Position numbers and translations under genes: made by a program | Assembly: GCA_009886115.1 (NCBI GenBank) | Contig: VFJJ01000015.1 | Location: 1-50,265 of the forward strand | Source: Actinomycetota bacterium | GTDB lineage: Bacteria > Actinomycetota > Acidimicrobiia > IMCC26256 > VFJJ01 | Length of the DNA stretch: 50,265 bases | Reading direction: 5' to 3' | Shown here: piece by piece, positions 15,184 to 48,394 of the stretch | How positions within the stretch are numbered: the first letter of the stretch is position 1 | Layout: the number at the start of each line of letters is the position of its first letter | Notes under the pieces: model-generated | Databases searched by the model: none | What the model saw: the letters and a program-made list of their open reading frames with translations, nothing else | What the model was told of the DNA's origin: nothing

Positions 15184-15223
15184 GGCCGATGAACGCCGTG
15201 AGACACTGCACGCGGAGGATTGC

Positions 15224-15946
15224 ATGAGCAACGCCGATCATCACGACCTGGCCAGCCCATTCCTGCGGTCGGGTGAGATCGCCGCGGTCTCGGCGAAGTT
15301 CGCCGAGGGCCTGGCCCGCATCCGCGACGTCACCGATCGCGACGGTGCGTGTCCCGCCTGGGCCAAGGCGCTCTACATGTCGGGTGCAGCCGCGGTGAAG
15401 GGCCACGACACGATGGTGCACCGGGAGCTGGCGCGCGCGGCTGCCGGGGGCCTGAGCCTCGACTGGGCTCGGGGCGCGTCGCTCGCGGTGCTCATCAGCC
15501 GGGGTGAGGCGGTGTACGAGCGCTTCGTCACGGCTCTCGATTCGGTGTATGGGGTGGCCCGTCCCGAGCCCAATGCGCCGATCCCCGAGCTCGAGATGAG
15601 CCGCGACGCGGCCCTCGAGTACTTCCATGGGTACTTCGGGTTCGTGCCCGAGTACGTGACGCTCATGGCCGACGACGCCCCCCGGGCCCTGGAGGGATAC
15701 GTGCTCATGCGCGAGTGGTCGCTGGCCGAGAACCAGCTGCCGGCCAAGCACGTGGAGTTGCTGCTGTGCACCATGAATGCAGCTGAGTTCTCGTCGCGTT
15801 TCGTGAACGTGCACGCCAACGGGGCCAGACGGGCCGGAGCGTCGGAGGCTGAGATCGTGGAGGCCGTCCTCTGCGCAATCCCCGTGGCCGGGGTCGCGTC
15901 GTGGTTACCGGGCGCTGACGGGATCATGGAAGGCCGGGCGCGATGA
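15224..15946 (+). CDS. Carboxymuconolactone decarboxylase-family protein (two CMD units)
   Basis: 240 aa from ATG 15224, with GGAGG upstream. Two AhpD/CMD-like helical units can be seen: WAKALYMSGAAAVKGHDTMVH near residues 45-65 and KHVELLLCTMNAAEF near 175-190. The redox CxxC pair of AhpD is absent, so a peroxidase-type role is unlikely. A decarboxylase, isomerase or ring-opening role as in lactone decarboxylases would fit the operon. The following gene overlaps its stop (ATGA at 15943). Confidence 0.75.
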   Translation: MSNADHHDLASPFLRSGEIAAVSAKFAEGLARIRDVTDRDGACPAWAKALYMSGAAAVKGHDTMVHRELARAAAGGLSLDWARGASLAVLISRGEAVYERFVTALDSVYGVARPEPNAPIPELEMSRDAALEYFHGYFGFVPEYVTLMADDAPRALEGYVLMREWSLAENQLPAKHVELLLCTMNAAEFSSRFVNVHANGARRAGASEAEIVEAVLCAIPVAGVASWLPGADGIMEGRAR

Positions 15947-20365: not shown

Positions 20366-20797
20366 TCAGCGGGCGTCGGCCTGGAAGGTGTCGCCGTCCT
20401 CCCATTGCACGTCGATGGGACCGGTGCTGATCAGGATGAACTCGCAGCCGTCGGGCCCCGACTCCTCGGGGCCGTAGGTGTGACCGGCCCGCACCCAGCG
20501 CACGTCGCCCGTCGCGTACCAACCGGTGCCGTCGTTGAACGTCATCGAGCCCTTCATGATCACGTAGATCGTGTCGGCAGCGTGGGCGTGCCGGTTGGCC
20601 AACGTGTCGGGCGGGAACTTGTTGGGCACGATCCAGGGACCGGATTCCCAGGTGTCGCCCATGAACTTGACCTTCACGATGTCGGTCATGTTGGTGAAGA
20701 ACTCGGGAAACTCCTCGGGGTCGACGAAGGTCGTCCATTCCCCGCCGTCGAGGCTGGCCTTGCCCCGCCACTCATTGCGCTCGGCGTACGACTCCAT
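20366..20797 (-). CDS. Cupin-domain protein
   Basis: 143 aa from ATG 20797, with GAGGAGA 8 bases upstream. A single cupin core is visible (RHAHAADTIYVIMKGSM around residues 65-82, then GDVRWVRAGHTYGPEESG), with His residues fit to bind a metal. It may be a small dioxygenase, isomerase or binding protein; the fold does not decide. Last gene of the six-gene operon beginning at 26393. A more distant cupin lies at 31993-32490. Confidence 0.75.
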   Translation of the reverse strand: MESYAERNEWRGKASLDGGEWTTFVDPEEFPEFFTNMTDIVKVKFMGDTWESGPWIVPNKFPPDTLANRHAHAADTIYVIMKGSMTFNDGTGWYATGDVRWVRAGHTYGPEESGPDGCEFILISTGPIDVQWEDGDTFQADAR

Positions 20798-20864
20798 GTG
20801 CTTGTCTCCTCGGACCGTCGCAGCGGTCATCAGGTGTGGTCGTGGTCGTCAGTGGTCCAGGTAG

Positions 20865-26561: not shown

Positions 26562-27464
26562 ATGGCCGAAGAGGCGCCGCTGCTGGCGAACGAGGACGAT
26601 CATCCGCACGATCTGGTCCACGAGGAAGGCTCGCGTCGGGTCATCGCCATGGACTCGGCACGGTACGTCGATGCCCGAAATCGTGACCGCGATGTCGTGG
26701 TGGCAGCCTCCTACCTGGGTGTGCTCCCTGCTCGCCTGATGGCGCCGCACCGGCCGCGGGCCGTGATCGGCCATGACGGCTGCATCGGCAAGGACGGCGC
26801 TGGTATCGCGGGGCTCTGGTACCTCGAGGCCTTGGGAATACCGGCCGCCACGGCCGAGGGGATGAGCGCCGAGCTCGGCAACGGGATCGACATGTACGAG
26901 ACCGGCCTCATCTCCAGGGTCAACATCTACGCCGAGCGGTGCGGTGTCACCGAAGGGATGTCGGTGCGAGACGCGGCCCTGGTGCTGCTCCGCAACGATC
27001 CGAGCGGCGAGGTCGATGAGGGGACCAAGATCCGGCGGGAGGTGAAGGCCACGTCGAGATCGGGACGAGAGATCGTGGTCACCGACTCGATCGTGTTCGC
27101 GCTGCCCGGCGACTCCAACAACGTGCTCGTGACGGCAGGGCACACCGGACGCAGTGGCGCCAAGTTCCTCCTGGAGGTGCACCCACACGGGTTCATCTGC
27201 TCCGACGGCGGGCGGGCCAAGAACGACTCGGGCACCAGCGGGCTCATCGTGACCGACGAGCACGGCCTCGCCGGCGCGTGCTGCGACGCGTGGAGCGCGC
27301 CGGTGGGAGACGCGTTCAAGGCCTGGGACGAGGGTCGGATCAGCGCGTGCAACGAGTCGGCTCGACGCCGCGGGGTCGAGGTCGGGATGCTCGTGCGCGA
27401 TGCCGCGCAGGCGTTGCTGCATGAGGTGCCCGACGTGTCCGAGGTCGCGAAGTCCGGAGCGTGA
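26562..27464 (+). CDS. Uncharacterised conserved protein, copy B of a two-copy family
   Basis: 300 aa from ATG 26562, with GGGAGG upstream. It aligns with the protein at 8888-9736 from about residue 25 to 290 and shares GVLPAR, IAGLWYLEALGIPAA, ELGNGIDMYE, TDSIVFALPGDS, NVLVTAGHTGRS, GFICSDGGR and ISACNESAR. It has an extra acidic N-terminus (EEAPLLANEDD). It is soluble with no signal peptide. I do not recognise the family. Five bases separate it from a CoA ligase gene; copy A is also joined to a CoA ligase but downstream of it. Repeated association in different orders argues for a functional link. The two copies are clearly diverged, so they probably serve different substrates. Confidence 0.85.
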   Translation: MAEEAPLLANEDDHPHDLVHEEGSRRVIAMDSARYVDARNRDRDVVVAASYLGVLPARLMAPHRPRAVIGHDGCIGKDGAGIAGLWYLEALGIPAATAEGMSAELGNGIDMYETGLISRVNIYAERCGVTEGMSVRDAALVLLRNDPSGEVDEGTKIRREVKATSRSGREIVVTDSIVFALPGDSNNVLVTAGHTGRSGAKFLLEVHPHGFICSDGGRAKNDSGTSGLIVTDEHGLAGACCDAWSAPVGDAFKAWDEGRISACNESARRRGVEVGMLVRDAAQALLHEVPDVSEVAKSGA

Positions 27465-27468
27465 TCAC

Positions 27469-29010
27469 GTGAACGTCGGGCTGGCGATCACCCGCAATGC
27501 CGTTCGCCGTCCAGACAGCCCGGCGCTGTTCGGCGATCGCGTCGTCACCTACCGGGAGCTCGACGAGCGGACGAACCGTCTCGCCCATGCACTCAGCGAC
27601 AGGTTCGGCATCGCCAAGGGCGACCGTGTGGCGCTGTTCGTTCCCAATCGCCCCGAGGTCGTCGAGGTGCTGGGCGGGATCGTCAAGTGCGGAGCGGTAT
27701 ACGTGGGCCTCAACTTCCGGCTCGGGCCCACCGAGATGGAGCAGGTCTTCGACAACGCCGAGCCCCGATTGATGATCACGGATTCCGAGCACCGGGCCGA
27801 GGCCGAACGGGTCTGCTCGCTGCTGGGTGTGCCGCTCGTCGACATCGACACCGTTGCCTACGCGGAGCTGCTCGCGGCGTCGTCGGCCGAAGCTCATCCG
27901 GCGGTGCATCAGGTCCGGCACGATGACGACTTCTGCATCGTGTACACGAGCGGCACGACCGGTCGGCCCAAGGGGGTGCTGTTCGATCATGCCCGGGCGC
28001 TCCAGCATGCGACCGTCACGTGTCTGGAGTACGACGTCACGCCCGACAGCCGGTATCTCGTGCAGATCCCGCACAACTCGAGCGTCAACATCACGATCGT
28101 GCCCTGTCTGGTGATCGGGGCCGCTCTCGGGTTTCTCGACAGTCGGAGCTTCGACCCGGTGCCCTTCGCCCGGATGGTTGCCGACCATGCCGTCACCCAC
28201 TCGTTCCTCGTGCCGACGCAGCTGATGCGCATGCTCGATCGCCTGCCGCACAGCGACGATCATCTCCTGTCGTCACTCGTGACCCTGGGGTACGGATCGT
28301 CGCCCATCAGTCCCGATCGGCTGGGCGAGCTCGTGTCGCGTTTGGGACCGATCTTCATCCAGCTCTACGGGATGGCCGAGATCGCTTCGGTCGGGACCCT
28401 GTTGCGCAAGCACGACCACGTGGCCGCGCTCGGGCGCAGCCCCCGGTTGCTCGCCTCGTGCGGGCAGCCGTCGTACGCCGTCGACGTGCGTGTGGTCGAT
28501 GGCGACGGTCGGGATGTCGCGATCGGTGAGCGGGGCGAGGTGATCTTCGCCGGGCCCCATGTGATGAAGGGCTACTACCGGGAGCCGGAACGGACCGCCG
28601 AGCATCTCCGCGATGGTTGGATGCATTCGGGCGATGTCGCCGTGGTCGACGCCGAGGGGTTCGTGTACATCGTCGACCGGATCAAGAACCTCATCATCCG
28701 GGGTGGCTTGAACATCGCCCCGACCGAGATCGAGAACGTGCTCTACCGCCACGAGGCCGTGCTGGAGTGCTCCGTGATCGGCGTTCCCGACCCGGAGTGG
28801 GGTGAGGCGATCGTGGCTGTCGTGGCTCTCAGGCAGGGGCACACGGTGGAGCCCGAGGAGCTGCGCTTGCACTGCCGGCAGTCGGAGCTGTCGTCGATCA
28901 AGGTTCCCGTTCGCGTGGAGGTCGTCGACTCCCTCCCCAAGAACGCCGTCGGCAAGATCGCCAAGGACGAGCTCCGCCGCCAGCACTGGGGCCCCGGCCG
29001 CCAGGTGTGA
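27469..29010 (+). CDS. AMP-dependent acyl-CoA ligase
   Basis: 513 aa from GTG 27469 (MNVGLAITRNA), 5 bases after the unknown gene, with GGAG about 10 bases upstream. It has YTSGTTGRPKGVLFDHA, YGMAE, HSGDVAVVD, KNLIIRGGLNIAPTEIE and the complete A10 motif PKNAVGKIAK. It is a typical fatty/aryl acid-CoA ligase, not closely related to the two other ligases here (9733, 20865). It forms a two-gene operon with copy B of the unknown family. Confidence 0.9.
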   Translation: MNVGLAITRNAVRRPDSPALFGDRVVTYRELDERTNRLAHALSDRFGIAKGDRVALFVPNRPEVVEVLGGIVKCGAVYVGLNFRLGPTEMEQVFDNAEPRLMITDSEHRAEAERVCSLLGVPLVDIDTVAYAELLAASSAEAHPAVHQVRHDDDFCIVYTSGTTGRPKGVLFDHARALQHATVTCLEYDVTPDSRYLVQIPHNSSVNITIVPCLVIGAALGFLDSRSFDPVPFARMVADHAVTHSFLVPTQLMRMLDRLPHSDDHLLSSLVTLGYGSSPISPDRLGELVSRLGPIFIQLYGMAEIASVGTLLRKHDHVAALGRSPRLLASCGQPSYAVDVRVVDGDGRDVAIGERGEVIFAGPHVMKGYYREPERTAEHLRDGWMHSGDVAVVDAEGFVYIVDRIKNLIIRGGLNIAPTEIENVLYRHEAVLECSVIGVPDPEWGEAIVAVVALRQGHTVEPEELRLHCRQSELSSIKVPVRVEVVDSLPKNAVGKIAKDELRRQHWGPGRQV

Positions 29011-30104: not shown

Positions 30105-30791
30105 TCAGAACGGGGGGAGGCGGCGGAGGTTGGCGTCCCACATCTGTTCGCGGAAGCCGTGGCGGAGGTAGGCGTCGCGGTAGGTGGCGGCGATGGGATC
30201 GGGGAGGGGCTTTCCGCCGACGGCCATGGCCGCGAGCTGGTAGCCGGCGCACAGCTCCAACAGCAGGGCCTCGACCGTGCAGTGCTCGAGGGTGTCGGCC
30301 ACGTTGACCGCGCCGTGATGGCTCATCAGCAAGGCCCGCTTGGACCCGAGGGCCTTGACGATGAGCGGGCCCTCCTCGTCGGGGGTGTGCACGCCGTCGT
30401 CCTCGAAGAAGGCCACGTCGTCGAGGAACAGGCCCGCGTAGGTGTAGTACATCCCGAACGGCTCGGCGGTGGTGGTGAGCGTCGAGATGTTGCGCGAGTG
30501 CGTGTGGATGATGGAATTGATCTCGGGCCGCGCTTCGTACACGGCGGCGTGGAAGTTGATGCCCGGCGATGAAGTAATGGTGCCGGCCTCGCGGATCCCG
30601 AGATCGAAGCCGACCTTCGAGACGTGTTCGGGCAAGGTCTCGTCGAAGTACTGATAGGGCGTGACCCAGAAGGCGTCCTCGCCGGGCACGCGTACGCTGA
30701 CGTGTCCGCCGATCTGGCTGTCGAGGCCTTCCCGGTGGAGGATGCGACGCGCGGCTGCGATGAGATGCCTCACGTCGCCGGGAGCGTTCAC
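30105..30791 (-). CDS. Class II aldolase/adducin-family protein
   Basis: 228 aa. GTG 30791 overlaps the stop of the amidohydrolase gene (GTGA). Class II aldolase zinc ligands are visible as HTH in INSIIHTHS and a further His in LMSHHGAVNV. SSPGINFHAAVYEARPE is the usual preceding strand-helix. Family members cleave fuculose-1-phosphate-like aldols or decarboxylate hydroxy acids; the phosphate-binding pattern is not clear here. Last gene of the operon 33289-30105, so it may cleave or decarboxylate the product of the amidohydrolase. Confidence 0.85.
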   Translation of the reverse strand: MNAPGDVRHLIAAARRILHREGLDSQIGGHVSVRVPGEDAFWVTPYQYFDETLPEHVSKVGFDLGIREAGTITSSPGINFHAAVYEARPEINSIIHTHSRNISTLTTTAEPFGMYYTYAGLFLDDVAFFEDDGVHTPDEEGPLIVKALGSKRALLMSHHGAVNVADTLEHCTVEALLLELCAGYQLAAMAVGGKPLPDPIAATYRDAYLRHGFREQMWDANLRRLPPF

Positions 30792-31996
30792 AGGGTCGTC
30801 GTCGCTGCTGATCGCTGGGCCTCGGGTGGCTCCGGGAGCTTCAGCCCGAACAGCTCGACGCAGGTGTCGCGCACGATCGCCGCCCGGGCCTCGGCGGGAA
30901 CACCGGCCAGGACGGTGTCGATCACCTGACGGGAGTTGGGCCAGGTACTCGAACCGTGCGGATAGTCGTTGCCCCACATCAGATTGCCGTACCCCATCAG
31001 GGGCAGCGCCGCGTCGTGGATGCCGATGGGGTCCTCGAGAAACGTCGCGTAGATCTGGCGCTTGTAGTACCCGCTCGGCGCCATGGTGAGCTCGGTGTCG
31101 AAGCTGGCTCGGTAGCGGTTCCACCACAGGTCGGCCATGTGCAGCCAGAAACCGATCCAGCCGATCTCGTTCTCGGCTGAGACGATCTTCAACCGGGGGA
31201 AGCGCTCGAGCACTCCCGAGAACACGATGTCGGTGAGGCTGTGCACGACCTCCTCGTGCAGCTCCATGAGACCGCCGAAGTACTCGTTGGCCGGCAGGTC
31301 GGTGAGCATCTGCTTCGACGGGCGTCCATGACCGGTGAGGATGTGCAGCCCCACGGGCATGTCGAGGTCTTGAGCGGCGGCCCAGAAGCGGTCGTAGGAA
31401 CGCCCGGTGAACGGGCGGTCGGCGGGGGGCGACGCCATGACCATGACGCCCCGCAGACCCCGGTCGCGCGTGCGCTCGAGCTCGGCGATGGCCCCGTCGA
31501 CATCGAGGATGCCGGCGAGGCCCATGCCGACGAGCCGGTTGGTGTCGTAGGAGCAGAACTCGGAGAGCCAGTCGTTGTAGGCCCGGAAGAGCGCCGCCTG
31601 GTACGCGAGGTCCTCGACCCGGAACATGGGGAAGGCCAAGCTGGCGTACAGCACCTCGGCGGAGACCCCGTCGACATCCTGAGCGGCGAGCCGTGCCGCA
31701 GGGTCCCAGCCGCCGGCCGGGGCATCGGCTTCGGCCAACGCCTTCGTGTTGTGCGCGGCGAGCTCGTCGTCGCGCTTGTTGGCTGCGAACAGGCCCGAGT
31801 AGTTCACGATCGGGATGCCGCCGCCGCCGAACTTGTACTTGCTCGCCGCCTCGTCGTAGAAGATGCGAGGCACACGGTCGCGGTAGCGGGTATCGACGCG
31901 CTCGGCCCAGAGATCGCCGGGCTCGAGCACATGGGAGTCGGCCGAGACGATGATCTCGGACGCGCCGCCGCTCGTGTCGCCCGCGGAACTCGTCAC
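30788..31996 (-). CDS. Amidohydrolase-family TIM-barrel enzyme (decarboxylase-like)
   Basis: 402 aa from GTG 31996, overlapping the cupin stop (GTGA). The first motif is DSH (VSADSHVLEP) instead of HxH, as in a large actinobacterial subgroup. Others are MPVGLHILTGHG (His), VSAENEIGWIG and WGNDYPHGSSTWPNS (metal-binding Asp). Proteins of this group sit in aromatic-acid pathways and act as non-oxidative decarboxylases or hydrolases. Operon neighbours are a diiron-type protein, a cupin and an aldolase. Confidence 0.83.
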   Translation of the reverse strand: MTSSAGDTSGGASEIIVSADSHVLEPGDLWAERVDTRYRDRVPRIFYDEAASKYKFGGGGIPIVNYSGLFAANKRDDELAAHNTKALAEADAPAGGWDPAARLAAQDVDGVSAEVLYASLAFPMFRVEDLAYQAALFRAYNDWLSEFCSYDTNRLVGMGLAGILDVDGAIAELERTRDRGLRGVMVMASPPADRPFTGRSYDRFWAAAQDLDMPVGLHILTGHGRPSKQMLTDLPANEYFGGLMELHEEVVHSLTDIVFSGVLERFPRLKIVSAENEIGWIGFWLHMADLWWNRYRASFDTELTMAPSGYYKRQIYATFLEDPIGIHDAALPLMGYGNLMWGNDYPHGSSTWPNSRQVIDTVLAGVPAEARAAIVRDTCVELFGLKLPEPPEAQRSAATTTL

Positions 31997-32490
31997 GAGA
32001 AGCGCTCTGTCAGCATCTCGACGTTGAGGGTGGAACCGTCGCTCGAACCAATGGGCCGTGCCGGCCAGCGCCCATCCTTGAAGATGACGATCACGCGCAC
32101 CCCCTCGGGCCCGGCGATGAGCGGGCCGTACACCTGACCGGCCTTGGCGATGCGGATGTCGCCGGCGTGGTACCAGTGACCGCTCACCTGCTGGCTGCCT
32201 TCGAGCAGGAACTCGGAGTAGTCGCAGTCGTGGAAGTGCGGCTCGATGCGGCACTGCGGCGGGAAGAACACGTTGAACACCGCGGGCGCAGTGATGTCGT
32301 CGGGATCACCGATCTTGTACTGGCTCACCTCGACGCCGTTGGGCAGGGTCTGCCAGCCGATCTCGTCCCACGACGTGCCGGCATGACCGCGCCGGCCCAG
32401 CTGCACCTTGATGCTGGCTCCCTGGGGAAGTCCCTCGGCCTCGTCGGCGGTGTCGGCGCTGTCGGCGCTGTCGTTCTCGGTGACGGACAT
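31993..32490 (-). CDS. Cupin-domain protein
   Basis: 165 aa from ATG 32490, with AGGAG 5 bases upstream. The first ~20 residues are Ser/Ala/Asp-rich (SADSADTADEAE), encoded by a short repeat, and are probably disordered. The cupin core begins at RIEPHFHDCDYSEFLLEG (His-x-His with Asp/Glu) and continues to GDIRIAKAGQVYGP. The two His plus Glu could bind Fe or another metal, so a small dioxygenase is possible. Second gene of the operon starting at 33289. Confidence 0.78.
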   Translation of the reverse strand: MSVTENDSADSADTADEAEGLPQGASIKVQLGRRGHAGTSWDEIGWQTLPNGVEVSQYKIGDPDDITAPAVFNVFFPPQCRIEPHFHDCDYSEFLLEGSQQVSGHWYHAGDIRIAKAGQVYGPLIAGPEGVRVIVIFKDGRWPARPIGSSDGSTLNVEMLTERFS

Positions 32491-32504
32491 CGGTGCTCCT
32501 TCGA

Positions 32505-32540
32505 GATCGAACGGGATCGAACGCGATCGAACGCGATCGG
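32505..32540. repeat. Tandem 10-bp repeat (gatcgaacgc)
   Basis: Three full units and a partial fourth lie in the 67-bp gap between the diiron-protein and cupin genes, immediately before the cupin ribosome site. The GATCGAACG core resembles half of the shared motif at 37132. It could be regulatory or simple slippage expansion. Confidence 0.8.
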
Positions 32541-32557
32541 GACCAGTGTGGCAGGCC

Positions 32558-33289
32558 TCAGGCAGCCGCGTCGCGGTAGAGCATCCACATCTCGTGGAAC
32601 AGTCGGCCGGTGTCGAGCGTGCAGTCGTAGACGTGCTTGCGGCCCTCCGGTGTCGTCGCGTAGGCCGAGACCAGCTCGATGCCCTCGTCGCCGTGCTCCT
32701 CGTCGGCGGTGATGTGCATGGTGAAGAACACGACCTGCTCGTCGCTGAGCCCGTAATTGGCCTTGAGCGCGTTGACCATGCGGGCGAACGTGGCCGGCAC
32801 GAACGACTCCAACCCGATGGCGATGGCGCTGAGCGGCACGAACCACTCGCGACACAGCCCCATGAACTCGAAGTACTCGGTGAGTCGTCGTCCCGCCGGC
32901 ACCTGCTCTGCGCCGCGTATGGCATCGGCGTCGGCGCCGATCGCTCGGGCGAATTCCAGCAACAACTCGGGGTGGGCCTTGGTGTTGGTGAAGGTCCCCA
33001 TGCACTCTTCGGCCAGGTTCTTCACCAGGGTGGTGCGGACCGCCTCGTGCGGGCAGCGGACGTAGATGGCGCCGATCCAGGGGAGCATCCGGCTGATGTG
33101 CAGGTAGAACTGCTCGGTCCAGGCCGCGATCTGCTCGAGCGTGGCCCGACCGGATTCGAGGTCGAGCAGGAACGGATGGTCGTGCATGCCGTTGCCCGGC
33201 CGAGCGAGCTCTCGGCGCATGAGGCCCACGAACTCATCGGGTGTCATCGCGGCCAGATCGGCGGTCGTCGGGGCAAAGGTAGCGGCCAT
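32558..33289 (-). CDS. Heme-oxygenase-like diiron protein (TenA/PqqC/CADD-type fold)
   Basis: 243 aa from ATG 33289, with AGGAGA 4 bases upstream. All-helical. The core pair H192-x3-D196-x2-H199 (HITADEEH) reproduces the iron-binding H-x3-D-x2-H of CADD-like heme-oxygenase-like diiron oxidases. Likely partner ligands are E94 or E95 (NLAEECMG), H106 (KAHPELL) and E161 (IGLESF), at spacings close to those of CADD. Such proteins use O2 for oxidative C-C or C-N cleavage; PqqC relatives lack the metal set. It is the first gene of an operon with a cupin, amidohydrolase and class II aldolase. Substrate unknown. Confidence 0.82.
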   Translation of the reverse strand: MAATFAPTTADLAAMTPDEFVGLMRRELARPGNGMHDHPFLLDLESGRATLEQIAAWTEQFYLHISRMLPWIGAIYVRCPHEAVRTTLVKNLAEECMGTFTNTKAHPELLLEFARAIGADADAIRGAEQVPAGRRLTEYFEFMGLCREWFVPLSAIAIGLESFVPATFARMVNALKANYGLSDEQVVFFTMHITADEEHGDEGIELVSAYATTPEGRKHVYDCTLDTGRLFHEMWMLYRDAAA

Positions 33290-33413
33290 GGGTTCTCCTG
33301 GGTGGGCGTTGCTGCGGCGGCAGTCTGAGCGATCGCTTGGCCGATCCCCCGACCGGTTCCCCGCGGCCACGATCAATCGATCGTCAAACCATGATCATAG
33401 TTCTGAAGGGATG

Positions 33414-33911
33414 TCATGGCAAGAAGTCACCGGCGTCGATTCGCACGTCGCGGATCGTGGTGTCGATCGCTCTCAGACCCTTCGCCGGCATGGCCCCGAG
33501 GCCGAACTCGATCTCGGCCAGGGCCTTCGCGGCCTTGACGACGATCTCGGTTCCGGCCGGTGTTATGCGGGCCAGCACCGTCCGCCGATCGTCGGGATGT
33601 GGTACCCGCTCGACGTGCCCGTCGGTCTCGAGGCGGTCGATGGTGTTGGTGACGCTCGTCGGATGCACCATCAGCCGCACGCCCATCTTGCCCATGGGCA
33701 GTGCGCCCGTCCGGGAGAAGTGCAGCAGAGCCAAGGCCTCGAAGCGCGAGAACGTGAGCCCGAGCGGTCGCAGGGCCTCGTTGATCCGGTGCAGGACGAT
33801 CTGGTGGGCGCGGGTGATGGACGTGGCCGCACTCATCGCGTCGGTGGCGCCCCAGCCGTGGACGCTCCAGTTGCGGCGGGCCTCGTCGATGGGGTCGAAC
33901 GGCAGGGGCAC
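33414..33911 (-). CDS. MarR-family transcriptional regulator
   Basis: 165 aa from GTG 33911. No ribosome site is visible, but TACGAT lies 7 bases upstream, so the transcript is probably leaderless. Winged helix: LTFSRFEALALLHF, MGVRLMVHPTSVTNTIDRLETDG, then the wing HPDDRRTVLARITPAG. It is divergent from the B12-mutase operon across 75 bp with overlapping promoter elements, so it probably represses that operon in response to a small acid or CoA ester (inference). Confidence 0.88.
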   Translation of the reverse strand: MPLPFDPIDEARRNWSVHGWGATDAMSAATSITRAHQIVLHRINEALRPLGLTFSRFEALALLHFSRTGALPMGKMGVRLMVHPTSVTNTIDRLETDGHVERVPHPDDRRTVLARITPAGTEIVVKAAKALAEIEFGLGAMPAKGLRAIDTTIRDVRIDAGDFLP

Positions 33912-38126: not shown

Positions 38127-38933
38127 GTGGAACCCAAGGCGGTACTGGTCACGGGGGCGGGATCGGGGATCGGCTCGGGGATCGCCGAGGTTCTCGCCGC
38201 CCGGGGCTGGCGGGTCGCGGTCAACGACGTCGACCCCGTTCTGGCGGCCGACACGGCCGCGGAGCTCGGTGGCCCCGAGCGGGCCGTGGCCCTGTCGGGC
38301 GACATCGGCACCGAGCCGGAGGCGATCGTCGCCCGGGCCGCTGCGCTCCTCGGTGGTCGCCTCGATGCTCTCGTCAACAACGCTGGTATCCACCGGCGGG
38401 CCCCGCTCGCCGATGTCGCGGCCGACGACCTCGACGCCGTCTACCGGGTCAACCTCCGCGCCGTCGTGTTGGCCTCACAGGCCGCGCTGCGCCAGTTCCG
38501 TTCTTCCGGGATGAGCGGCGCGATCGTGAACGTCTCGTCGATCGCGGCTCTGACTCCACAGATGGGCGTGGGTCTCTACACGGCGACCAAAGCCGGCGTG
38601 TCGGCCTTCACGGCGCAGGCTGCCGTGGAGTGGGGCCCGTTCGGCGTGCGGGTCAACGCGGTGGCTCCGGGCATGGTGCGCACAGCGATGGCCGAGGCGG
38701 TGTACGCCGATGCCGAGTTGCACGAACGCCGACGGGCAATGGTCCCGCTCGGGCGTATCGGCCATCCGCACGACATCGGCACGGCGGTGGCCTTTCTCCT
38801 CTCCGACGACGCGAGCTACGTGACGGGCCAGACGATCGTGGTCGACGGAGGATTCACCAACGTGCTGATCGATCTGCTGCCGCATCCCGGAGCGCCGCAC
38901 CACGACGCCACCACCACACTGGCGCACCGGTGA
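38127..38933 (+). CDS. SDR oxidoreductase with C-terminal LPHP tail
   Basis: 268 aa from GTG 38127, 34 bases after the previous SDR. TGAGSGIGSG, NNAGIHRR, YTATKAG and VDGGF mark a classical SDR. After the usual end it continues with TNVLIDLLPHPG and a His/Thr-rich tail. Related tails occur in the SDRs at 44610 and 45455, which suggests one subfamily. Its stop overlaps the amidohydrolase start. Confidence 0.84.
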   Translation: MEPKAVLVTGAGSGIGSGIAEVLAARGWRVAVNDVDPVLAADTAAELGGPERAVALSGDIGTEPEAIVARAAALLGGRLDALVNNAGIHRRAPLADVAADDLDAVYRVNLRAVVLASQAALRQFRSSGMSGAIVNVSSIAALTPQMGVGLYTATKAGVSAFTAQAAVEWGPFGVRVNAVAPGMVRTAMAEAVYADAELHERRRAMVPLGRIGHPHDIGTAVAFLLSDDASYVTGQTIVVDGGFTNVLIDLLPHPGAPHHDATTTLAHR

Positions 38934-39952
38934 GCAACCTCAGCCGTCCCGGCCTGATCGACGTGCACGCCCACGTGGTCCTCGACGGCACCATGGGCGC
39001 CGCCGGCCCGGCGTGCGGGCCCGAGATCGGGACCGGAGCCGACGGCATCGACTGGTTCCGCGTCGGCGATTGGTACCTCCACGGCGTGCCGTACCGCGGG
39101 TCGTTGTTCATGGAGGCCGAGCTGCGCCTGCGAGCCATGGACGAGCAGGAGATCAGGGTGCAGGCGCTCTCGCCCAACCCGCTCTCCTACCTCCACCGGA
39201 TCTCCCCACCCAATGCCGTCGACTATTGCCGACGGCACAACGACGACCTGGCCGAGATCGTGAGAACCCATCCCGATCGCTTCGTGGGTCTGGCTTCGTT
39301 GCCGATGCAGGATGTCGATGCCGCCGTTGCCGAGCTCCGGCGCAGTGTGGTCGAGCTGGGTCTGCTGGGGCCGTACATCGGCACCGATTTCGGCGTGCAC
39401 CTCGATGACGCCCGTCTCGACCCGTTCTACGGGGCGTGTGTCGAGCTCGACGTGCCGCTGTTCTTTCACCCCGCGCCGAGCGGGCTCGACGGGCCGCTCC
39501 GTGACGATCGCATGCGGCGCTTCGATCTCGACCTCGTGCTCGAGTTCTCGTTCGAGGAGATCGTCACCGTTGCCATGTTGGTGTTCGGCGGCGTGACCCG
39601 GCGCTTCCCCACGCTTGACGTGTGCGTGTCGCACGGAGGCGGATCGACGCCCGTCCACCTGGCCAAGCTGCGCAAGCTGGCCGAGCGGCGCCCGTCGATG
39701 CCGGAGTGGATCAGGCCGGTCGGCGAGTTCGACCGGGCGTTCGGGCGCCTCTGGTTCGACTGCCACATCACCGGCGAGCGGGAGTTCGCCTTCGCCGTCG
39801 AGCAGCTCGGGACCGACCATCTCGTGCTCGGAACCAACTTCGGCGGCTGGGATCGCGGTACCGCTCCCGCACTCGGTGCGCTCGCCGACGGTCTCACCGC
39901 CAATGCCGTGCGGTTGCTGCGGCTGGAGCGGCGAGCGCCACACCTGCTGTGA
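38930..39952 (+). CDS. Amidohydrolase-family enzyme (ACMSD-like) with altered metal site
   Basis: 340 aa from GTG 38930, overlapping the SDR stop (GTGA). HxH at residues 13-15 (IDVHAHVV), His in PLFFHPAPSG and SHGGGSTP resemble ACMS-decarboxylase relatives. At the last ligand position, where the family has Asp (GSDYP), this protein reads GTNFGGWD near residue 302. The metal Asp is Asn unless the Asp four residues later replaces it. Probably a ring decarboxylase or hydrolase. It has long loops with SPNPLSYLHRI. Substrate unknown. Confidence 0.8.
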   Translation: MSNLSRPGLIDVHAHVVLDGTMGAAGPACGPEIGTGADGIDWFRVGDWYLHGVPYRGSLFMEAELRLRAMDEQEIRVQALSPNPLSYLHRISPPNAVDYCRRHNDDLAEIVRTHPDRFVGLASLPMQDVDAAVAELRRSVVELGLLGPYIGTDFGVHLDDARLDPFYGACVELDVPLFFHPAPSGLDGPLRDDRMRRFDLDLVLEFSFEEIVTVAMLVFGGVTRRFPTLDVCVSHGGGSTPVHLAKLRKLAERRPSMPEWIRPVGEFDRAFGRLWFDCHITGEREFAFAVEQLGTDHLVLGTNFGGWDRGTAPALGALADGLTANAVRLLRLERRAPHLL

Positions 39953-42509: not shown

Positions 42510-43721
42510 TCAGCTCGTGAAGACCACGCCGTAGCTGGCCCAATAGGGGCGTCGGGTGTTGGCGTCCATCACAGGCGGACGGGCCGGGTCGGGACGGGCG
42601 CCGTGGTCGAAGAGCTTCTGGACGGCCACCGTCGCCAGCCCGAACAGGTGGTCGTCGAAGCCGCCATCACGCTCGAGATCGGGAACGAGCCCGGCGGCCA
42701 GCTCCTGGCCGATACAGGCGTGCATTCCGCTGCCGAACGACAGGCCGTAGGGCCCGACCCCTTCGGGGAGTTGGCGATGCGGGTTGAAGTCGGCGGCGTC
42801 GGGCCCGAACACGTCGGGGTCGCGGTTGGCTGAGATGAGGTCGAACACGACGGTGTCGCCCACGTGGATCTCGGTCCCCGACCGCAGCCGGGCATCGACC
42901 AGAGCCCGCCGCATGCCCGTGGGGCTCGACGGGTTGAGGCGGATCGTCTCGTGCACGCAGCGCTGCACGAACAGCCGGTCGCTGGTGACGAGGCCCTCGT
43001 CGTCGGGATGGTCGGCGATCCATTCCCAGATCGCGTGCAGGCAGCGTCCGAACGCCGTGGCCGAGGTGTGGGCCCCGGCGAGGAGGAAGAACGCGATCTC
43101 GCGGGTCACCACATCGGGCGGCAGGGCGAGGTTGTCCTGGTTGCGCAGGAGCACCGTGAGGATGTCGCGCGGTAGCTCGTCCTCGGTGATCTCGCCGGCC
43201 GCGAGACGGGTGATGAGCGCACGCCGACGGGCTATCGAGGGATCGAGGAACTCGGTGTCGAAGTCGGCGATGGCCGATCGCACCTCGGCTTCCACCTCGG
43301 CCTTGGGACGGGTCGAGTGCCCGAGCGTGGCGCCCTCGATGAACTTCATGAGGTAGCGGTAGAGCCGGCTGGTCTCGTCGGGCGTGCCCAGCGGGCGGTC
43401 GACCCCAGCGGTGAGCGCGGCCAGGTTCATCATCAGGTGATGGCCGAGGTGCACGAGATCGGCCCGGCCCTCGGCGACGAAGGGCCTCACGGTGTCCTCG
43501 ATGACCGCTGGGAACAACGCTCGCTCGTACTGGAGATGGATGTCGCGCCGGAACAGGCGGTTCTCGAGCCGGCGCCGGGCCCGGTGGGCGTCACCGTGGA
43601 GGGTGACGAGCACGTCGGCCATCACAACCTCGCCGGCGTCGTACAGGCTCTGCTGGAAGTCCTTGTTGCGGTACGCCTCGAGCACGTCGGCGTAGCGGGT
43701 CAACACGATCGTCTCGGCCAT
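42510..43721 (-). CDS. Cytochrome P450
   Basis: 403 aa from ATG 43721, at normal bacterial P450 length. ExxR is E258-R261 (ETIR). The heme loop is FGSGMHACIG with axial Cys336. The I-helix reads AGAHTS (215-220), where most P450s have Asp or Glu before the Thr; here it is His218. N-terminal HGDAHRARRR is the C-helix heme-propionate region. No ribosome site is seen; TACGAT 6 bases upstream fits a leaderless transcript. Closely related to the P450s at 1-822 and 46850-48088. Electron partner may be the ferredoxin at 48093. An SDR gene is just upstream. Confidence 0.93.
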   Translation of the reverse strand: MAETIVLTRYADVLEAYRNKDFQQSLYDAGEVVMADVLVTLHGDAHRARRRLENRLFRRDIHLQYERALFPAVIEDTVRPFVAEGRADLVHLGHHLMMNLAALTAGVDRPLGTPDETSRLYRYLMKFIEGATLGHSTRPKAEVEAEVRSAIADFDTEFLDPSIARRRALITRLAAGEITEDELPRDILTVLLRNQDNLALPPDVVTREIAFFLLAGAHTSATAFGRCLHAIWEWIADHPDDEGLVTSDRLFVQRCVHETIRLNPSSPTGMRRALVDARLRSGTEIHVGDTVVFDLISANRDPDVFGPDAADFNPHRQLPEGVGPYGLSFGSGMHACIGQELAAGLVPDLERDGGFDDHLFGLATVAVQKLFDHGARPDPARPPVMDANTRRPYWASYGVVFTS

Positions 43722-43738
43722 GGCGCGATCGTACGTGG

Positions 43739-44500
43739 CTACGCGTTCGTGACGCCGAGGCCGAGGCCGCCGTCGACGGTGAGAACGCTGCCCGTGGTCC
43801 ACTCGGCGCGGGCCAGGTACTCGATGCCCTCGGCGATCTCGCCGACCGTGCCGATGCGGCCCAGGGCGTGCGATGAGGCCATCGACTGGAGCCGGGCCCG
43901 CGCCGTGTCGTCGTCGAACAGCCCGGCCCGTTGGTTGATCTCGGTGAACACGGCACCGGGACGGATGCACCCCACCCGGACGCCCTGCGGGCCGAGCTCG
44001 GCGGCGAGCACGCCGGTGAGCGTCTCGACGGCGCCCTTGGTCGCGGCGTACGGCGATGCCCCGGGGAACGCCCGCTGCGTGTGCACGGAGCCGATGAACA
44101 CGACGCAGCCGGAGCGCTCCGCGAGATGGGGGACGGCTTGGCCGGTGAGCATCATGGCCCCGACCACGTTGGTGTGGAAGACGTCGAGGAGCTCCCGCTC
44201 GTCGAGCTCGGTGATCGGACCCCGGTACATGTTGCCGGCGTTGTTGACGAGCACGTCGATCCCCCCACCGTGCTCGAGGGCCGTCGCCACCAACGCACGG
44301 CGGTCGACGTCGACGGTCACGTCGCCCTGGAGCCATCGGCATCGTGGACCGATCGACTCGGCGACCGCTTGAACCTTCTCGGCTCGGCGACCGTGGATCG
44401 TGACCCGGGCGCCGAGGGCGGCGAAATGGCGGGCGGTCCCTTCGCCGATCCCCGATCCTCCTCCGGTGACAACGACCGACATGCCCTCGACGGCTCTCAT
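43739..44500 (-). CDS. SDR oxidoreductase
   Basis: 253 aa from ATG 44500, with GGGGAG 8 bases upstream. TGGGSGIGEG, NNAGNMYRG, and YAATKGA as catalytic pair. It lies 17 bases upstream of the P450 gene on the same strand, so the pair may hydroxylate and then oxidise one substrate, although the P450 also seems to have its own leaderless promoter. Confidence 0.86.
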   Translation of the reverse strand: MRAVEGMSVVVTGGGSGIGEGTARHFAALGARVTIHGRRAEKVQAVAESIGPRCRWLQGDVTVDVDRRALVATALEHGGGIDVLVNNAGNMYRGPITELDERELLDVFHTNVVGAMMLTGQAVPHLAERSGCVVFIGSVHTQRAFPGASPYAATKGAVETLTGVLAAELGPQGVRVGCIRPGAVFTEINQRAGLFDDDTARARLQSMASSHALGRIGTVGEIAEGIEYLARAEWTTGSVLTVDGGLGLGVTNA

Positions 44501-44609
44501 CGTGGCTGCTCCCCGGTGGAGTCGTGGCCCGGCGAGCACGAGCACGCCCTGCCCGGGTGAGAGAAGATCGCGGGGCGATCCCCGATCCCTCTCGAGAGCA
44601 CGAGGCTCC

Positions 44610-45449
44610 GTGTCATCGTCTGCCCGTTCAACAGAACCGTCCCCGCGAGCGGTGGTCACCGGCGCGGCCCGCGGCATCGGACGCGCCGTGGTCGAACGCC
44701 TGCGGGCCGACGGGTGGACGGTCGTCGCCCTCGACCGTCTCGGTCGCGACGCCGGCGCCTTCGATGCCACGGACGCGACGGATGTCGCGGGCGCACCGGA
44801 TGGCTTCGATGCCCTGGGTGGATCCGACGGCGTGATCGCCTGCGACATGGCTGATCCCGATGCCATCGCGCGGGTGGCCGCGGCCGTGGGACCGGTCGAC
44901 CTGCTCGTGAACAACGCGGGGATCTGGCGCTTCGGTCATCTCGAGGACGTACCCGTCGCCGACATCGACGACGTTCTCGCCGTCAACCTGCGCGGACCGC
45001 TGCTGGCCATGCAGGCCTTCGTGCGTCCGATGCTCGAGCGGGGCCGTGGCGCCATCGTCAACGTGGTGTCGAGCGCGGCGGCCCAGGTGAACACCGGCGT
45101 CGGGATCTATGCCGCGTCGAAGGCGGGCCTGCTCGCACTCACCCGACAGGCAGCCCTCGAATGGGGGCCGCGGGGCATTCGGGTGAACGCCGTGGGGCCC
45201 GGGCTCGTGCCCACCGAGGGGACGGCCGCGGTATACGACGACCCCGAGGTGCGCCGGGTGCGGGCCGGCGCCGTTCCCTTGCGGCGCTTGGGAACTCCGG
45301 CCGATGTGGCCGAGGTCGTGGCGTTCCTGGGTTCGGAACGGGCGGCCTACGTGAGCGGTCAGGTGCTCTACGTCGACGGCGGGTTGACCCAGTCGCTCAT
45401 GACGCTCCTGCCCCGTCCGCCGGGCACGGCCGGGCCCAGCGCCGAGTGA
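44610..45449 (+). CDS. SDR oxidoreductase with C-terminal LPRP tail
   Basis: 279 aa from GTG 44610, with GAGG upstream. TGAARGIG, NNAGIWRFG, YAASKAG and YVDGGL are SDR motifs. A variable Asp/Ala/Thr-rich insertion (FDATDATDVAGAPDGFDALG) follows beta-2. The tail TQSLMTLLPRPPG resembles those of the SDRs at 38127 and 45455. It is divergent from the SDR at 43739 and convergent with that at 45455, 5 bases away. Confidence 0.84.
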   Translation: MSSSARSTEPSPRAVVTGAARGIGRAVVERLRADGWTVVALDRLGRDAGAFDATDATDVAGAPDGFDALGGSDGVIACDMADPDAIARVAAAVGPVDLLVNNAGIWRFGHLEDVPVADIDDVLAVNLRGPLLAMQAFVRPMLERGRGAIVNVVSSAAAQVNTGVGIYAASKAGLLALTRQAALEWGPRGIRVNAVGPGLVPTEGTAAVYDDPEVRRVRAGAVPLRRLGTPADVAEVVAFLGSERAAYVSGQVLYVDGGLTQSLMTLLPRPPGTAGPSAE

Positions 45450-45454
45450 CGCCG

Positions 45455-46327
45455 TCATCGAGCTCCGCCGTCTCCGCCGTCTCCGCCATCGGCGCCGGGG
45501 TTGCCGGAGCCGACTGAGTCGACCGACTGCGGGCGGGGAAGCTGGCTGATCATGTTCATGGTGACGCCCCCGTCGACGAGCAGGTTCTGCCCGGTGATGT
45601 ACGACGCGGCGTCGGAGGCGAGGAACAGCACGGCATCGGCGATGTCGTCTGCCGTTCCCAGCCGGCCCAGCGGCACCTTGGACGAGCGGATCTCGCGGAA
45701 TCCCGAGTCGGCATAGATCGGCGCCGACATGCCGCCGTCGATCAGGCCCGGCGCCACGGCGTTGACGCGGAGACCCCACGGCGCCCATTCGATGGCCATC
45801 TGCTGGGTGAGGAGCGCGATGGCCGCCTTGGTCGAGCCGTACGCGCCGGCGTTGGGTCCGGGCATCACCCCGTTCATCGACGTGATGTTCACGATGGCGC
45901 CCCGGCGCCCCTCGGCACGCAGGCGGCAGGCCACGGCTCGGGCCGTGAGGTAGGTGCCCGTGAGATTCACCTCGACCACGGCCCGCCAGTCGGCCGCGCT
46001 CAGATCGGCGAGCGGTCCGAAGCGCACGATGCCGGCATTGTTCACCAGCAGATCGGGAGTCCCGAACTCGTCGAGACAACGTTGCACAGCTGCTTCGTCG
46101 ACCGTGGATGCGATGAGCGCGACAGCTCGGGCACCCGGATCGCCCGGATCACCAGTGTCGCCAAGGCTCTGCGCGACTGAGCGAGCACCCGCCTCGTTCA
46201 CGTCGAGAACGCCGACGCGCATCCCGGTGGCGACGAGACGCCGGGCGATGACCTCGCCGATCCCGGAACCGCCTCCGGTGACGATGGCACTGGTCGTGAT
46301 GGCACTGGTCGTGATGGCACTGGTCAT
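45455..46327 (-). CDS. SDR oxidoreductase with N-terminal TSAIT repeats and C-terminal LPRP tail
   Basis: 290 aa from ATG 46327, without a visible ribosome site. The N-terminus is TSAIT repeated three times, the last running into the Rossmann motif VTGGGSGIGE, so the repeat adds length before beta-1. NNAGIVRFG, YGSTKAA and VDGGV follow. The tail MNMISQLPRP is like that of the two related SDRs, then ends in a Gly/Asp-rich repeat. It is divergent from the epoxide-hydrolase-like gene. Confidence 0.84.
   Translation of the reverse strand: MTSAITTSAITTSAIVTGGGSGIGEVIARRLVATGMRVGVLDVNEAGARSVAQSLGDTGDPGDPGARAVALIASTVDEAAVQRCLDEFGTPDLLVNNAGIVRFGPLADLSAADWRAVVEVNLTGTYLTARAVACRLRAEGRRGAIVNITSMNGVMPGPNAGAYGSTKAAIALLTQQMAIEWAPWGLRVNAVAPGLIDGGMSAPIYADSGFREIRSSKVPLGRLGTADDIADAVLFLASDAASYITGQNLLVDGGVTMNMISQLPRPQSVDSVGSGNPGADGGDGGDGGAR
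45463..45489. repeat. Three tandem 9-bp units (ctccgccgt)
   Basis: Three copies, the last with one change, encode the Gly-Gly-Asp repeats at the C-terminus of the minus-strand SDR. Confidence 0.85.
46283..46327. repeat. Three tandem 15-bp units (gatggcactggtcgt)
   Basis: Three copies, with one base changed in the third, encode Thr-Ser-Ala-Ile-Thr repeats at the SDR N-terminus. Expansion changes only the length of the leader before the NAD-binding strand. Confidence 0.9.
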
Positions 46328-46409
46328 GGCGCACCAGTCGCAGAGGCTCTGGGCATGGTGGTCACGTCGCTCTCCTCGCGAGCCTGCGGGCTCCGATACG
46401 TTCTGGCTC

Positions 46410-46808
46410 ATGGCTCTCGACCTCGACCAGACCCGAGCTGCGATCGGGCGGTTCCTTCGAGCCGTCGAGACCGGCGACGCCTCGGCGACAGCATCCTGTT
46501 TCACCGTCGACGGGACGTGGTCGAACATGCCCCACCCGCCTGCGGTGGGCCACGAAGCGATCAGGGCGCTCTTCGCTCGGGTGCTCGACCGTTCGTCGAG
46601 CGTTCGCTGGGACGTGGTGTCGGAGGCCTATGCCCCGGGTCGGGCGTGGTTGGAGCGCGTCGATCGATTCTGGATCGATGGCCTCGAGCACTCGGTCGCC
46701 TGCAACGGCGTCTTCGAGATCGACGAGGCCACGGGTCTGTTGCGCGAGGTGCGCGACTACGTCGACCTGGGCCCGTGGCGCGCCGGGTTGGAGGCCGCCG
46801 GGATCTGA
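46410..46808 (+). CDS. Limonene-1,2-epoxide hydrolase-like protein (NTF2 fold)
   Basis: 132 aa from ATG 46410. TACGTT (46397-46402) lies 7 bases upstream, so a leaderless transcript is likely. Arg83, Asp85 and Asp116 have exactly the spacing of the catalytic Arg99-Asp101-Asp132 of limonene epoxide hydrolase (LERVDRF, VRDYVDL). Asn39 matches Asn55. The position of Tyr53 is Trp37. The enzyme would add water to an epoxide in one step, giving a diol. Convergent P450 (46850-48088) and nearby SDRs could make the epoxide and oxidise the diol (inference). Confidence 0.8.
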   Translation: MALDLDQTRAAIGRFLRAVETGDASATASCFTVDGTWSNMPHPPAVGHEAIRALFARVLDRSSSVRWDVVSEAYAPGRAWLERVDRFWIDGLEHSVACNGVFEIDEATGLLREVRDYVDLGPWRAGLEAAGI

Positions 46809-46849
46809 CGGCCGAGCGCACCGTCGAGAGGTGCATGCCGCGCGTCCGT

Positions 46850-48088
46850 TCATCGCTGGAACCGGCCGTCCAGACGCAGGCGCACCGGGTAACGGCCCCA
46901 GTTGCGGCGCGCCGTCGAGGTGTCGAGCGTCGGGAGATCGTCGGGATCGGGACGGGCGCCGTGCGCCAACAGTGCCCCGATCATCAACGGCACCGTCCCG
47001 TAGAGGTGCTCGGCCGGATCGGTGCCGGATTCGGAGGCCAGGCCGCCGTCGAGCTCCATCCCGATGCAGGCGTGCATCCCGCCCCCGAACGTGTGACCCC
47101 ACGGGGCAGCGTCGCTGCGGACCGTGCGGTGCGGGTTGAACTCGTGGGCGTCGGCGCCGAAGACAGCGACGTCGCGGTTGGCTGCCATCAGGTCGAGCGT
47201 CACCTGGCCGCCCGTGTCGACGGTCGTTCCGTTGCGGAGCTCGATCGGCGCCCGGGCCCGCCGCTGGCCGACGGGAGACGCCGGGTGCAGGCGCATCGAC
47301 TCGTGCACGCAGCGTTGGAGGAACAGGGGATCGGAGCGCACACGGTCGTCGTCGGCGGGACCGGCCCCGGCGAGCCAGGTGAAGATCTCGTGCACGGCAT
47401 GGGTGAAGGAGTTGGCCGTGGAGTGCATGCCTGCCTGGAGGTAGAAGGTGACCTCACGGCGGATCACGTCGTCGGGGAGCTCGAGCGCATCGGCATTGCG
47501 GGCCAGCACCGTGAGCACGTCGCGGGGGAGGGCGTCGTCGGCCAGCTCGCCATCGTCGACCCGGGCGATGAGCCGGCGACGGCGTTCCAGCGACGGACGG
47601 AACACGTCGGCGTCGAAGCGCTCGATGGCCGCTGCGACCTCGGCCCGCACCTCGTCCTTGGGTCGGGTGGAGTGGACGATCGTGGCGCCCTCGCTGAACC
47701 GGCACGAGTACTGGTACAACGCCTCCGACTCGGCCGCAGAACCAGTGGGACGGTCGACACCTGCGACCATCGCCGTGAGGTTGATGACCACGCGGCGGCC
47801 GAACGGCACGAGATCACCCCCACCGCCCGAGACGAGCGGGGCGAGCTGTTCGTCGATGGCCGGGGGGATGAGCTCGCGCTCGTAGAAGCGGAAGGTCTCC
47901 CTCCGGAACAGTCGGTTCTCGAGCCGGCGCCGGGCCTGGTGCTCACGGCCGTGGAGCACGATGAGCGCGTCGCCCATCACGAGCTCGGCCTCGTCGTAGA
48001 GCGACTGCGCGAGGTCCTTGTGGCGATAGGCATCGCGGACGTCGTCGTAGCGACTGAGCGTGATATCTGTCGGATTGTTACCGGCCAT
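46850..48088 (-). CDS. Cytochrome P450
   Basis: 412 aa from ATG 48088, 4 bases after the ferredoxin gene stop. ExxR is E263-R266 (ESMR), and the heme loop FGGGMHACIG has Cys341. The I-helix has AGMHST (219-224), with His222 where an acidic residue is usual, as in the P450 at 42510. It shares the long N-terminal match with the two other P450s of the window. It almost certainly takes electrons from the co-transcribed [3Fe-4S] ferredoxin. Substrate unknown. Confidence 0.93.
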   Translation of the reverse strand: MAGNNPTDITLSRYDDVRDAYRHKDLAQSLYDEAELVMGDALIVLHGREHQARRRLENRLFRRETFRFYERELIPPAIDEQLAPLVSGGGGDLVPFGRRVVINLTAMVAGVDRPTGSAAESEALYQYSCRFSEGATIVHSTRPKDEVRAEVAAAIERFDADVFRPSLERRRRLIARVDDGELADDALPRDVLTVLARNADALELPDDVIRREVTFYLQAGMHSTANSFTHAVHEIFTWLAGAGPADDDRVRSDPLFLQRCVHESMRLHPASPVGQRRARAPIELRNGTTVDTGGQVTLDLMAANRDVAVFGADAHEFNPHRTVRSDAAPWGHTFGGGMHACIGMELDGGLASESGTDPAEHLYGTVPLMIGALLAHGARPDPDDLPTLDTSTARRNWGRYPVRLRLDGRFQR

Positions 48089-48092
48089 GGGC

Positions 48093-48320
48093 TCAGACCG
48101 CCATCGGATCGATCTCGGCCCCGTCATCGCCGACGAGCACGATGGCCTGCCCGGGACAGTTCCGGGCGATCTTCTTCAGGCGCTCATCGCTCAACTCCGC
48201 TGCACCGGGGAGGACCTCGGCGAGTTGCTCGTCGTCGAAGTGAAACGCCTGGGGTGCATCGGCCACGCACTTGCCGCCGCTGATGCAGGCATCGCGATCG
48301 ATCCTGACCGTGAGTGACAT
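48093..48320 (-). CDS. [3Fe-4S] ferredoxin of the P450 system
   Basis: 75 aa from ATG 48320, with GGAGCGAACG just upstream. The Cys are 12, 18 and 55 (CISGGKC and NCPGQAI). This is the three-Cys pattern of P450-associated ferredoxins, with Gly15 in place of the fourth ligand, so a [3Fe-4S] cluster is expected. It transfers electrons one at a time to the P450 4 bases downstream. No ferredoxin reductase gene is present in the window. Confidence 0.92.
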   Translation of the reverse strand: MSLTVRIDRDACISGGKCVADAPQAFHFDDEQLAEVLPGAAELSDERLKKIARNCPGQAIVLVGDDGAEIDPMAV

Positions 48321-48381
48321 CGTTCGCTCCTCGCTTCTTGCCGAGCTTCGCAACGACGATTGCGGACGCGAGTTATCGGTA

Positions 48382-48394
48382 GTCAAGAGTTGAC
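48382..48394. promoter_or_regulatory. Palindrome GTCAA-GAG-TTGAC upstream of the ferredoxin/P450 pair
   Basis: A perfect 5-3-5 inverted repeat covers the stop codon of the amidohydrolase gene and lies 62 bases upstream of the ferredoxin start. On the minus strand its TTGAC half could also serve as a -35 element. Possible operator for the ferredoxin/P450 genes. Confidence 0.35.

Follow-up and report, generated by a model that had tools for sequence, protein, structure and literature searches.

A CADD-like heme-oxygenase-like protein lacking the pABA-synthase residues in a recurrent, putatively catabolic gene cluster of Acidimicrobiia

Background

Which reaction is carried out by a CADD-like protein encoded at the head of four tightly packed genes in an actinomycetotal genome, and do these four genes constitute one pathway? 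The protein belongs to the heme-oxygenase-like dimetal oxidases (the protein of this locus is hereafter called HDO) and is encoded on contig VFJJ01000015.1 of assembly GCA_009886115.1, of which positions 1 to 50,265 were analysed (the window, to which all coordinates refer). A sequence-only reading of positions 30105-33289 had interpreted the four genes as a heme-oxygenase-like diiron protein, a cupin, an amidohydrolase and a class II aldolase, which together would cleave oxidatively, hydrolyse and retro-aldol-cleave a single substrate. More than 10,000 members of the superfamily are predicted, but only about a dozen have an assigned function, nearly all of them in biosynthesis (PMC13108848). 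Our best reading is that HDO represents a new subfamily which contributes an O2-dependent reaction to a catabolic pathway, one that occurs chiefly in marine Acidimicrobiia. The gene in question is:

32558-33289, minus strand: HDO, CADD-like heme-oxygenase-like dimetal oxidase; ATG at 33289, stop at 32558, 243 aa; ligands E94, H106, E161, H192, D196 and H199

Family, ligands and fold of HDO

HDO matches the Pfam family Haem_oxygenas_2 (PF14518) with 97 bits, and TENA/PqqC more weakly; against the NCBIfam model of the CADD subfamily (TIGR04305) it scores 93.4 bits, which is under the curated cut-off of 200. The ligands H106, E161, H192, D196 and H199 are present at the positions claimed previously, and the sixth, which had not been named, is E94, aligning with the first Glu of the CADD DEEN motif. 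All six positions are invariant in 20 orthologs and in two distant relatives, and this invariance, together with the Pfam and NCBIfam CADD scores (97 and 93 bits), argues that the pattern did not arise by chance.

The nearest solved sequences are NePabS from N. europaea (9pj4) and CADD from C. trachomatis (1rcw), followed by PqqC, BesC and SznF. An AlphaFold2 model, built with 13 related sequences (pLDDT 89.3), places the six ligand residues on core helices or at helix ends. Foldseek searches with this model returned CADD (8vag/1rcw) at the top, with a TM-score of 0.90 by target length and an rmsd of 2.4 Å, and ranked PqqC, BesC and TenA below it. Membership in the metal-free PqqC/TenA proteins is rejected, as CADD outranks PqqC both in sequence similarity and in fold E-value and the six ligands are present. 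The sequence-only reading of HDO as a CADD-like diiron-type oxidase, which could have failed on a missing six-ligand pocket or on a placement with PqqC/TenA, is upheld on both points, with the dimetal content as a prediction.

CADD and NePabS are closest to HDO by both sequence and fold and possess the same set of three His and three carboxylate ligands, but identity over the fold alignment amounts to 20-22% only, and HDO differs in five additional residues between the first two ligands, in the absence of the sacrificial Tyr and Lys, and in its catabolic gene surroundings. These two enzymes build p-aminobenzoate (pABA) from their own Tyr27/25 and Lys152/159 (PMC11965152). In HDO the position of Tyr27 is occupied by Leu41 (Leu or Val in 20/20 orthologs) and that of Lys152 by Met171 (Met, Ile or Val in 20/20, never Lys). 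HDO is not a pABA synthase, because Leu41 and Met171 stand at these positions and the Tyr and Lys are found in no ortholog. The substrate-acting members BesC, UndA, AetD, PolF and others likewise share the dimetal heme-oxygenase-like fold, and their O2 chemistry on an external substrate is presumed here for HDO; however, similarity is far lower to BesC (24 bits) and SznF (12 bits), and enzymes of the BesC, UndA, AetD and PolF type convert amino or fatty acids in biosynthetic pathways. Taken as one joint reading, with a probability of roughly 0.6, HDO belongs to the CADD branch as a new member that does not synthesise pABA but has a substrate-acting role in catabolism.

Distribution of HDO

Orthologs of HDO (~60-70% identity to the window protein) were collected by a scan of genome contigs and by whole-genome searches, and duplicates were removed. 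The resulting set comprises 19 other loci (numbered with the prefix L below), 17 of them from presumed Acidimicrobiia and two from one betaproteobacterial metagenome-assembled genome (MAG). HDO is patchily distributed: a search of 298 genomes from another order of the same class found it in 16, and it was not found in the 57 other genomes searched within the window's own order, a combination that suggests horizontal transfer. The betaproteobacterial MAG possesses two HDO copies (L036 and L037; 64% and 60% identity), one of which adjoins a DUF1805-like gene and an ABC importer. A search of viral contigs yielded no HDO relative, and a search of plasmids yielded HDO relatives at 28-31% identity only and no close relative of the amidohydrolase. 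A second HDO-type family, ~30% identical, occurs in the same class and phylum (L003, L004, L005, L038-L042); in L003-L005 the distance between its first two ligands is shorter, as in CADD.

A conserved gene cluster around HDO

All window genes were used as queries against 122 kb of sequence flanking nine HDO orthologs. At identities of 55% or higher, 31 window homologs were found there, against none in 280 kb of control DNA from one HDO-bearing genome. The recurring modules are:

13252-15946, plus strand: acyl-CoA dehydrogenase, short-chain dehydrogenase/reductase (SDR) and CMD-domain protein (Pfam); near HDO in 11/19 other loci, 55-73% identity
26562-29010, plus strand: duplicated DUF1805-like protein and CoA ligase; 74-80% and 61-71% identity in several HDO loci
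8888-11913, minus strand: DUF1805-like paralogue and CoA ligase; 61% to an HDO neighbour in L036 and 71% to an HDO neighbour in L029
33980-37104, plus strand: what we take, from sequence recognition, to be methylmalonyl-CoA mutase large and small subunits and a MeaB/ArgK-like GTPase; homologs upstream of HDO in 5/19 other loci
38630-39952, plus strand: ACMSD/decarboxylase-like Amidohydro_2 protein (Pfam); 65-66% in L080, L081 and L086 (3/19)
42510-50265, minus strand: P450, SDR and SnoaL genes (Pfam); homologs form an operon directly upstream of HDO in relatives

The duplicated DUF1805-like protein is found near HDO in eight of the 19 other loci and a CoA ligase like that at 27400-29010 in seven; SDRs and SnoaL proteins like those at 43739-50265 recur in seven, and a P450 like that at 42510-44342 in nine. 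Identities in L030, L032, L034, L080-L083 and L086 reach 69-72% for the SDR, 57-59% for the P450 and 47-56% for SnoaL, and L080 holds most window modules packed into 20 kb. A sugar-type ABC importer is common to three loci (the window, L029 and L036). The Pfam types of the window are those of degradation: CoA ligases, ACAD, ECH, HCDH, LLM, P450, a sugar-type ABC transporter and regulators of the MarR, GntR and IclR families. The amidohydrolase that is conserved with HDO is the one at 38630-39952, not the one at 30788-31996 within the four-gene stretch; the best PDB matches of its L080 homolog are ACMSD.

The two DUF1805-like paralogues (26562-27464, plus strand; 8888-9736, minus strand) are ~290 aa long and internally duplicated, each half being DUF1805-like, and their homologs near HDO in other genomes are 61-80% identical. 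A fold search with a model of medium quality (pLDDT 70) gave no significant match, and only a local DUF1805 similarity to 1qw2 was found. We regard the protein as a candidate new enzyme of the pathway.

The P450s at 42510-44342, 46850-48127 and 3-707 are divergent, with AGxHT-like or AGAGT I-helix motifs. PDB searches with the P450, CMD and cupin proteins returned weak matches only and gave no substrate hint, and NCBIfam searches with the partner proteins gave no substrate-defining equivalog above cut-off. The window also includes sets of paralogues: two cupins (31993-32490 and 20366-20830), four luciferase-like monooxygenases, three or more Amidohydro_2 proteins, numerous SDRs and a number of CoA ligases.

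Composition of the four-gene stretch

Downstream of HDO follow a cupin (P0002), an Amidohydro_2 protein (P0003) and a class II aldolase-fold protein (P0004); upstream lie a promoter-like site and a regulator gene:

31993-32490, minus strand: cupin P0002, small, 165 aa
30788-31996, minus strand: Amidohydro_2 protein P0003, 402 aa, PtmU3/DitZ-like (Pfam PF04909)
30105-30791, minus strand: class II aldolase-fold protein P0004, 228 aa, of the pyruvic-oxime-dioxygenase-like group (Pfam PF00596)
33394-33422, minus strand: promoter-like site upstream of HDO, TTGCCA-17-TATGAT, a consensus match only
33414-33911, minus strand: MarR-family regulator, upstream of HDO on the same strand (Pfam PF01047)

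The order, strand and two GTGA overlaps of the four genes agree with the coordinates claimed by the sequence-only reading. The ATG of HDO is preceded by an AGGAG ribosome site; the cupin starts 67 nt after HDO with an AAGGAG site of its own, its stop overlaps the start of P0003 (31996/31993), and the stop of P0003 overlaps the start of P0004 (30791/30788). One promoter-like match was found upstream of HDO against 0.2 expected. HDO and the cupin are probably co-transcribed here with P0003 and P0004. The MarR-family regulator has a homolog in none of the 19 other HDO loci.

A cupin 53-57% identical to P0002 directly follows HDO in 6/19 loci (L031, L035, L082, L087, L088 and L092), and in L033 a cupin (51%) lies 4.3 kb from HDO; in one lineage a second acyl-CoA dehydrogenase replaces the cupin as the gene after HDO. 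An alignment shows H85 and H87 of the cupin to be conserved, E93 to be present in close relatives, and Tyr121 to stand at the expected His of the second motif.

P0003 finds its best PDB matches in PtmU3 (163 bits) and DitZ (93 bits), then in AibH2, 5-carboxyvanillate decarboxylase and SfbO. PtmU3, AibH2 and SfbO are dinuclear monooxygenases (PMC10811679, PMC7782822), and P0003 has in common with them the six first-shell ligands of AibH2 type (D-x-H, H, E, D-x2-H), namely D20, H22, H218, E275, D344 and H347. An extra acid two residues after the last His is, however, kept in dinuclear members only (PtmU3 Glu313, AibH2 Asp342; PMC7782822); at this diagnostic position P0003 carries Ser349, its nearest paired relative (L112) Val, and most other paired homologs Asp. 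By these residues P0003 is a possible, though not an established, dinuclear monooxygenase.

For P0004 the best PDB matches are 8iqa, 8il8 and 8ix6, the latter two of which appear in a paper on pyruvic oxime dioxygenase (POD), a non-heme Fe(II) enzyme (PMC11841055). Aligned with AfPOD and BWPOD, P0004 retains the class II aldolase fold, the iron-binding His triad (HTH at 96-98 and the SHHG motif at 157-160), the F-H pair and the near-metal Glu. It differs from POD in the replacement of Gln53 by His (GGHVSVR motif, 28-34) and, as it begins only a few residues before the aldolase domain, in the absence of the essential N-terminal region (Lys8, Met19); its similarity is also well under the E < 1e-60 reported for the POD clade (PMC11841055).

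A canonical FucA-type aldolase is rejected: by motif alignment, Gly77 of P0004 occupies what we take to be the position of the catalytic Glu73 of FucA. Judged from its residues, P0004 is POD-like at most and not a canonical aldolase. The labels 'amidohydrolase' and 'class II aldolase' are probably wrong for P0003 and P0004.

These identities raise an alternative in which all four proteins form an O2-activating non-heme set that oxidises successive sites of one molecule: besides HDO, the cupin as an oxygenase, P0003 as an amidohydrolase-related dinuclear monooxygenase (ARO) and P0004 as a POD-like Fe(II) enzyme. It would fit the closeness of P0003 to the AROs and of P0004 to POD, and most amidohydrolases paired with homologous aldolases elsewhere possess the complete ARO signature including the acid. 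Nevertheless, Ser349 takes the place of the marker acid, the Gln53 and N-terminal region of POD are changed or missing, the cupin conserves no more than two His and a Glu, and a Rieske reductase was not seen in the vicinity, so that we consider such a set improbable, although it survives best among the rivals.

The unity of the four genes is contradicted by their distribution. A homolog of P0004, or a best-hit homolog of P0003, is found in none of the 19 other HDO loci. Relatives of P0004 (41-61%) occur in six other genomes of the class, and nine of these loci were read with their flanks: at seven of the nine, in five other genomes, an Amidohydro_2 gene stands beside the P0004 homolog (six immediately upstream, one immediately downstream), with no HDO nearby. 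The four-gene stretch is a pair of HDO and cupin joined to a separately conserved pair of amidohydrolase and aldolase, because the P0003 and P0004 types are absent from the 19 other HDO loci and recur as a pair without HDO.

The stretch is therefore not a conserved four-gene operon, and the sequence-only reading of one dedicated pathway, with oxidative cleavage, hydrolysis and retro-aldol cleavage of a single substrate, loses much of its ground. In its favour are the tight spacing on one strand with two GTGA overlaps, the ribosome sites before the first two genes, and the recurrence of the cupin as partner of HDO. But the conserved co-occurrence of the four genes fails, the hydrolytic step is weak given that the nearest solved relatives of P0003 are monooxygenases, and so is the retro-aldol step, given that Gly replaces the FucA Glu and that P0004 is nearest to an Fe(II) dioxygenase. 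We hold this pathway to be slightly less likely still than the oxygenase set.

The directly adjacent Amidohydro_2 and class II aldolase-fold genes recur in several genomes of the class (L105-L108, L111-L113), and most of these Amidohydro_2 proteins carry the full dinuclear-oxygenase signature (D-x-H, H, E, D-Y-P-H-x-D); the pair may merit a study of its own.

Proposed role of HDO

Through E94, H106, E161, H192, D196 and H199, HDO is predicted to bind a dinuclear centre, either Fe/Fe or Mn/Fe, and the reduced centre would react with O2 to give a peroxo or high-valent oxidant. In characterised members a peroxo intermediate oxidises the bound substrate, which leads to C-C cleavage, desaturation or N-oxygenation (PMC13108848). 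In HDO the oxidant would carry out one oxidative step within a large degradative pathway. Since CoA ligases, acyl-CoA dehydrogenases and P450s are frequent partners, the intermediate is likeliest to be P450-hydroxylated or CoA-linked, and the reaction to be an oxidative C-C cleavage, a decarboxylation or a desaturation; N-oxygenation finds no support in the HDO loci. The other steps of the pathway are probably encoded in the window, namely P450 hydroxylation, SDR oxidation, CoA activation, acyl-CoA dehydrogenation and a methylmalonyl-CoA mutase reaction, to which P0003 and P0004 probably add another metal-dependent oxidation or C-C cleavage.

Several points speak against a catabolic HDO. Nearly all characterised members of the superfamily work in biosynthesis, with amino or fatty acids as substrates (PMC13108848), and a catabolic role would therefore depart from precedent. 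The control DNA of the cluster comparison comes from one HDO-bearing genome only, the two betaproteobacterial loci (one MAG) have few partners in common with the others, and the substrate class, metal content, O2 chemistry and catabolic direction of HDO are predictions from sequence, model and gene context.

The same precedent (all but a few characterised members, PMC13108848) could favour a biosynthetic cluster, with HDO as a tailoring enzyme of a natural product, and P450s and SDRs occur in such clusters too. However, there is no polyketide synthase, nonribosomal peptide synthetase or terpene synthase among the annotated window genes, and the CoA ligases, ECH, HCDH, methylmalonyl-CoA mutase, importer genes and regulators indicate degradation; we judge a biosynthetic cluster unlikely, a little more so than the four-gene pathway. 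That HDO supplies folate as a self-sacrificing pABA synthase of CADD/NePabS type is hardly credible: its nearest solved relatives and 93 bits against the CADD model would point there, but the sacrificial Tyr and Lys are replaced, the score stays below the cut-off, and the neighbours are degradative, not folate genes.

Within the catabolic reading of HDO a more specific proposal can be made, if tentatively and with clearly less confidence: HDO might be the signature enzyme of a pathway, so far undescribed, by which marine Acidimicrobiia degrade a compound aerobically, performing C-C cleavage or oxidative decarboxylation of a P450-hydroxylated, CoA-linked cyclic substrate, with the duplicated DUF1805-like protein as a further new enzyme.

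Conclusions

The HDO fold and its ligand set were already known. In the papers searched we found neither this subfamily nor the loss of its pABA residues nor its recurrent degradative surroundings, and no account of such a cluster. Annotations such as 'amidohydrolase' and 'class II aldolase' in operons of this kind may conceal monooxygenases or dioxygenases. As the partners of HDO are defined, the search for its substrate is narrowed. An HDO subfamily that recurs with the same degradative gene set in 19 loci provides a concrete, testable case of a catabolic HDO, and if HDO proves to be the signature enzyme of such a pathway, this would extend to catabolism a superfamily known so far almost exclusively from biosynthetic pathways.

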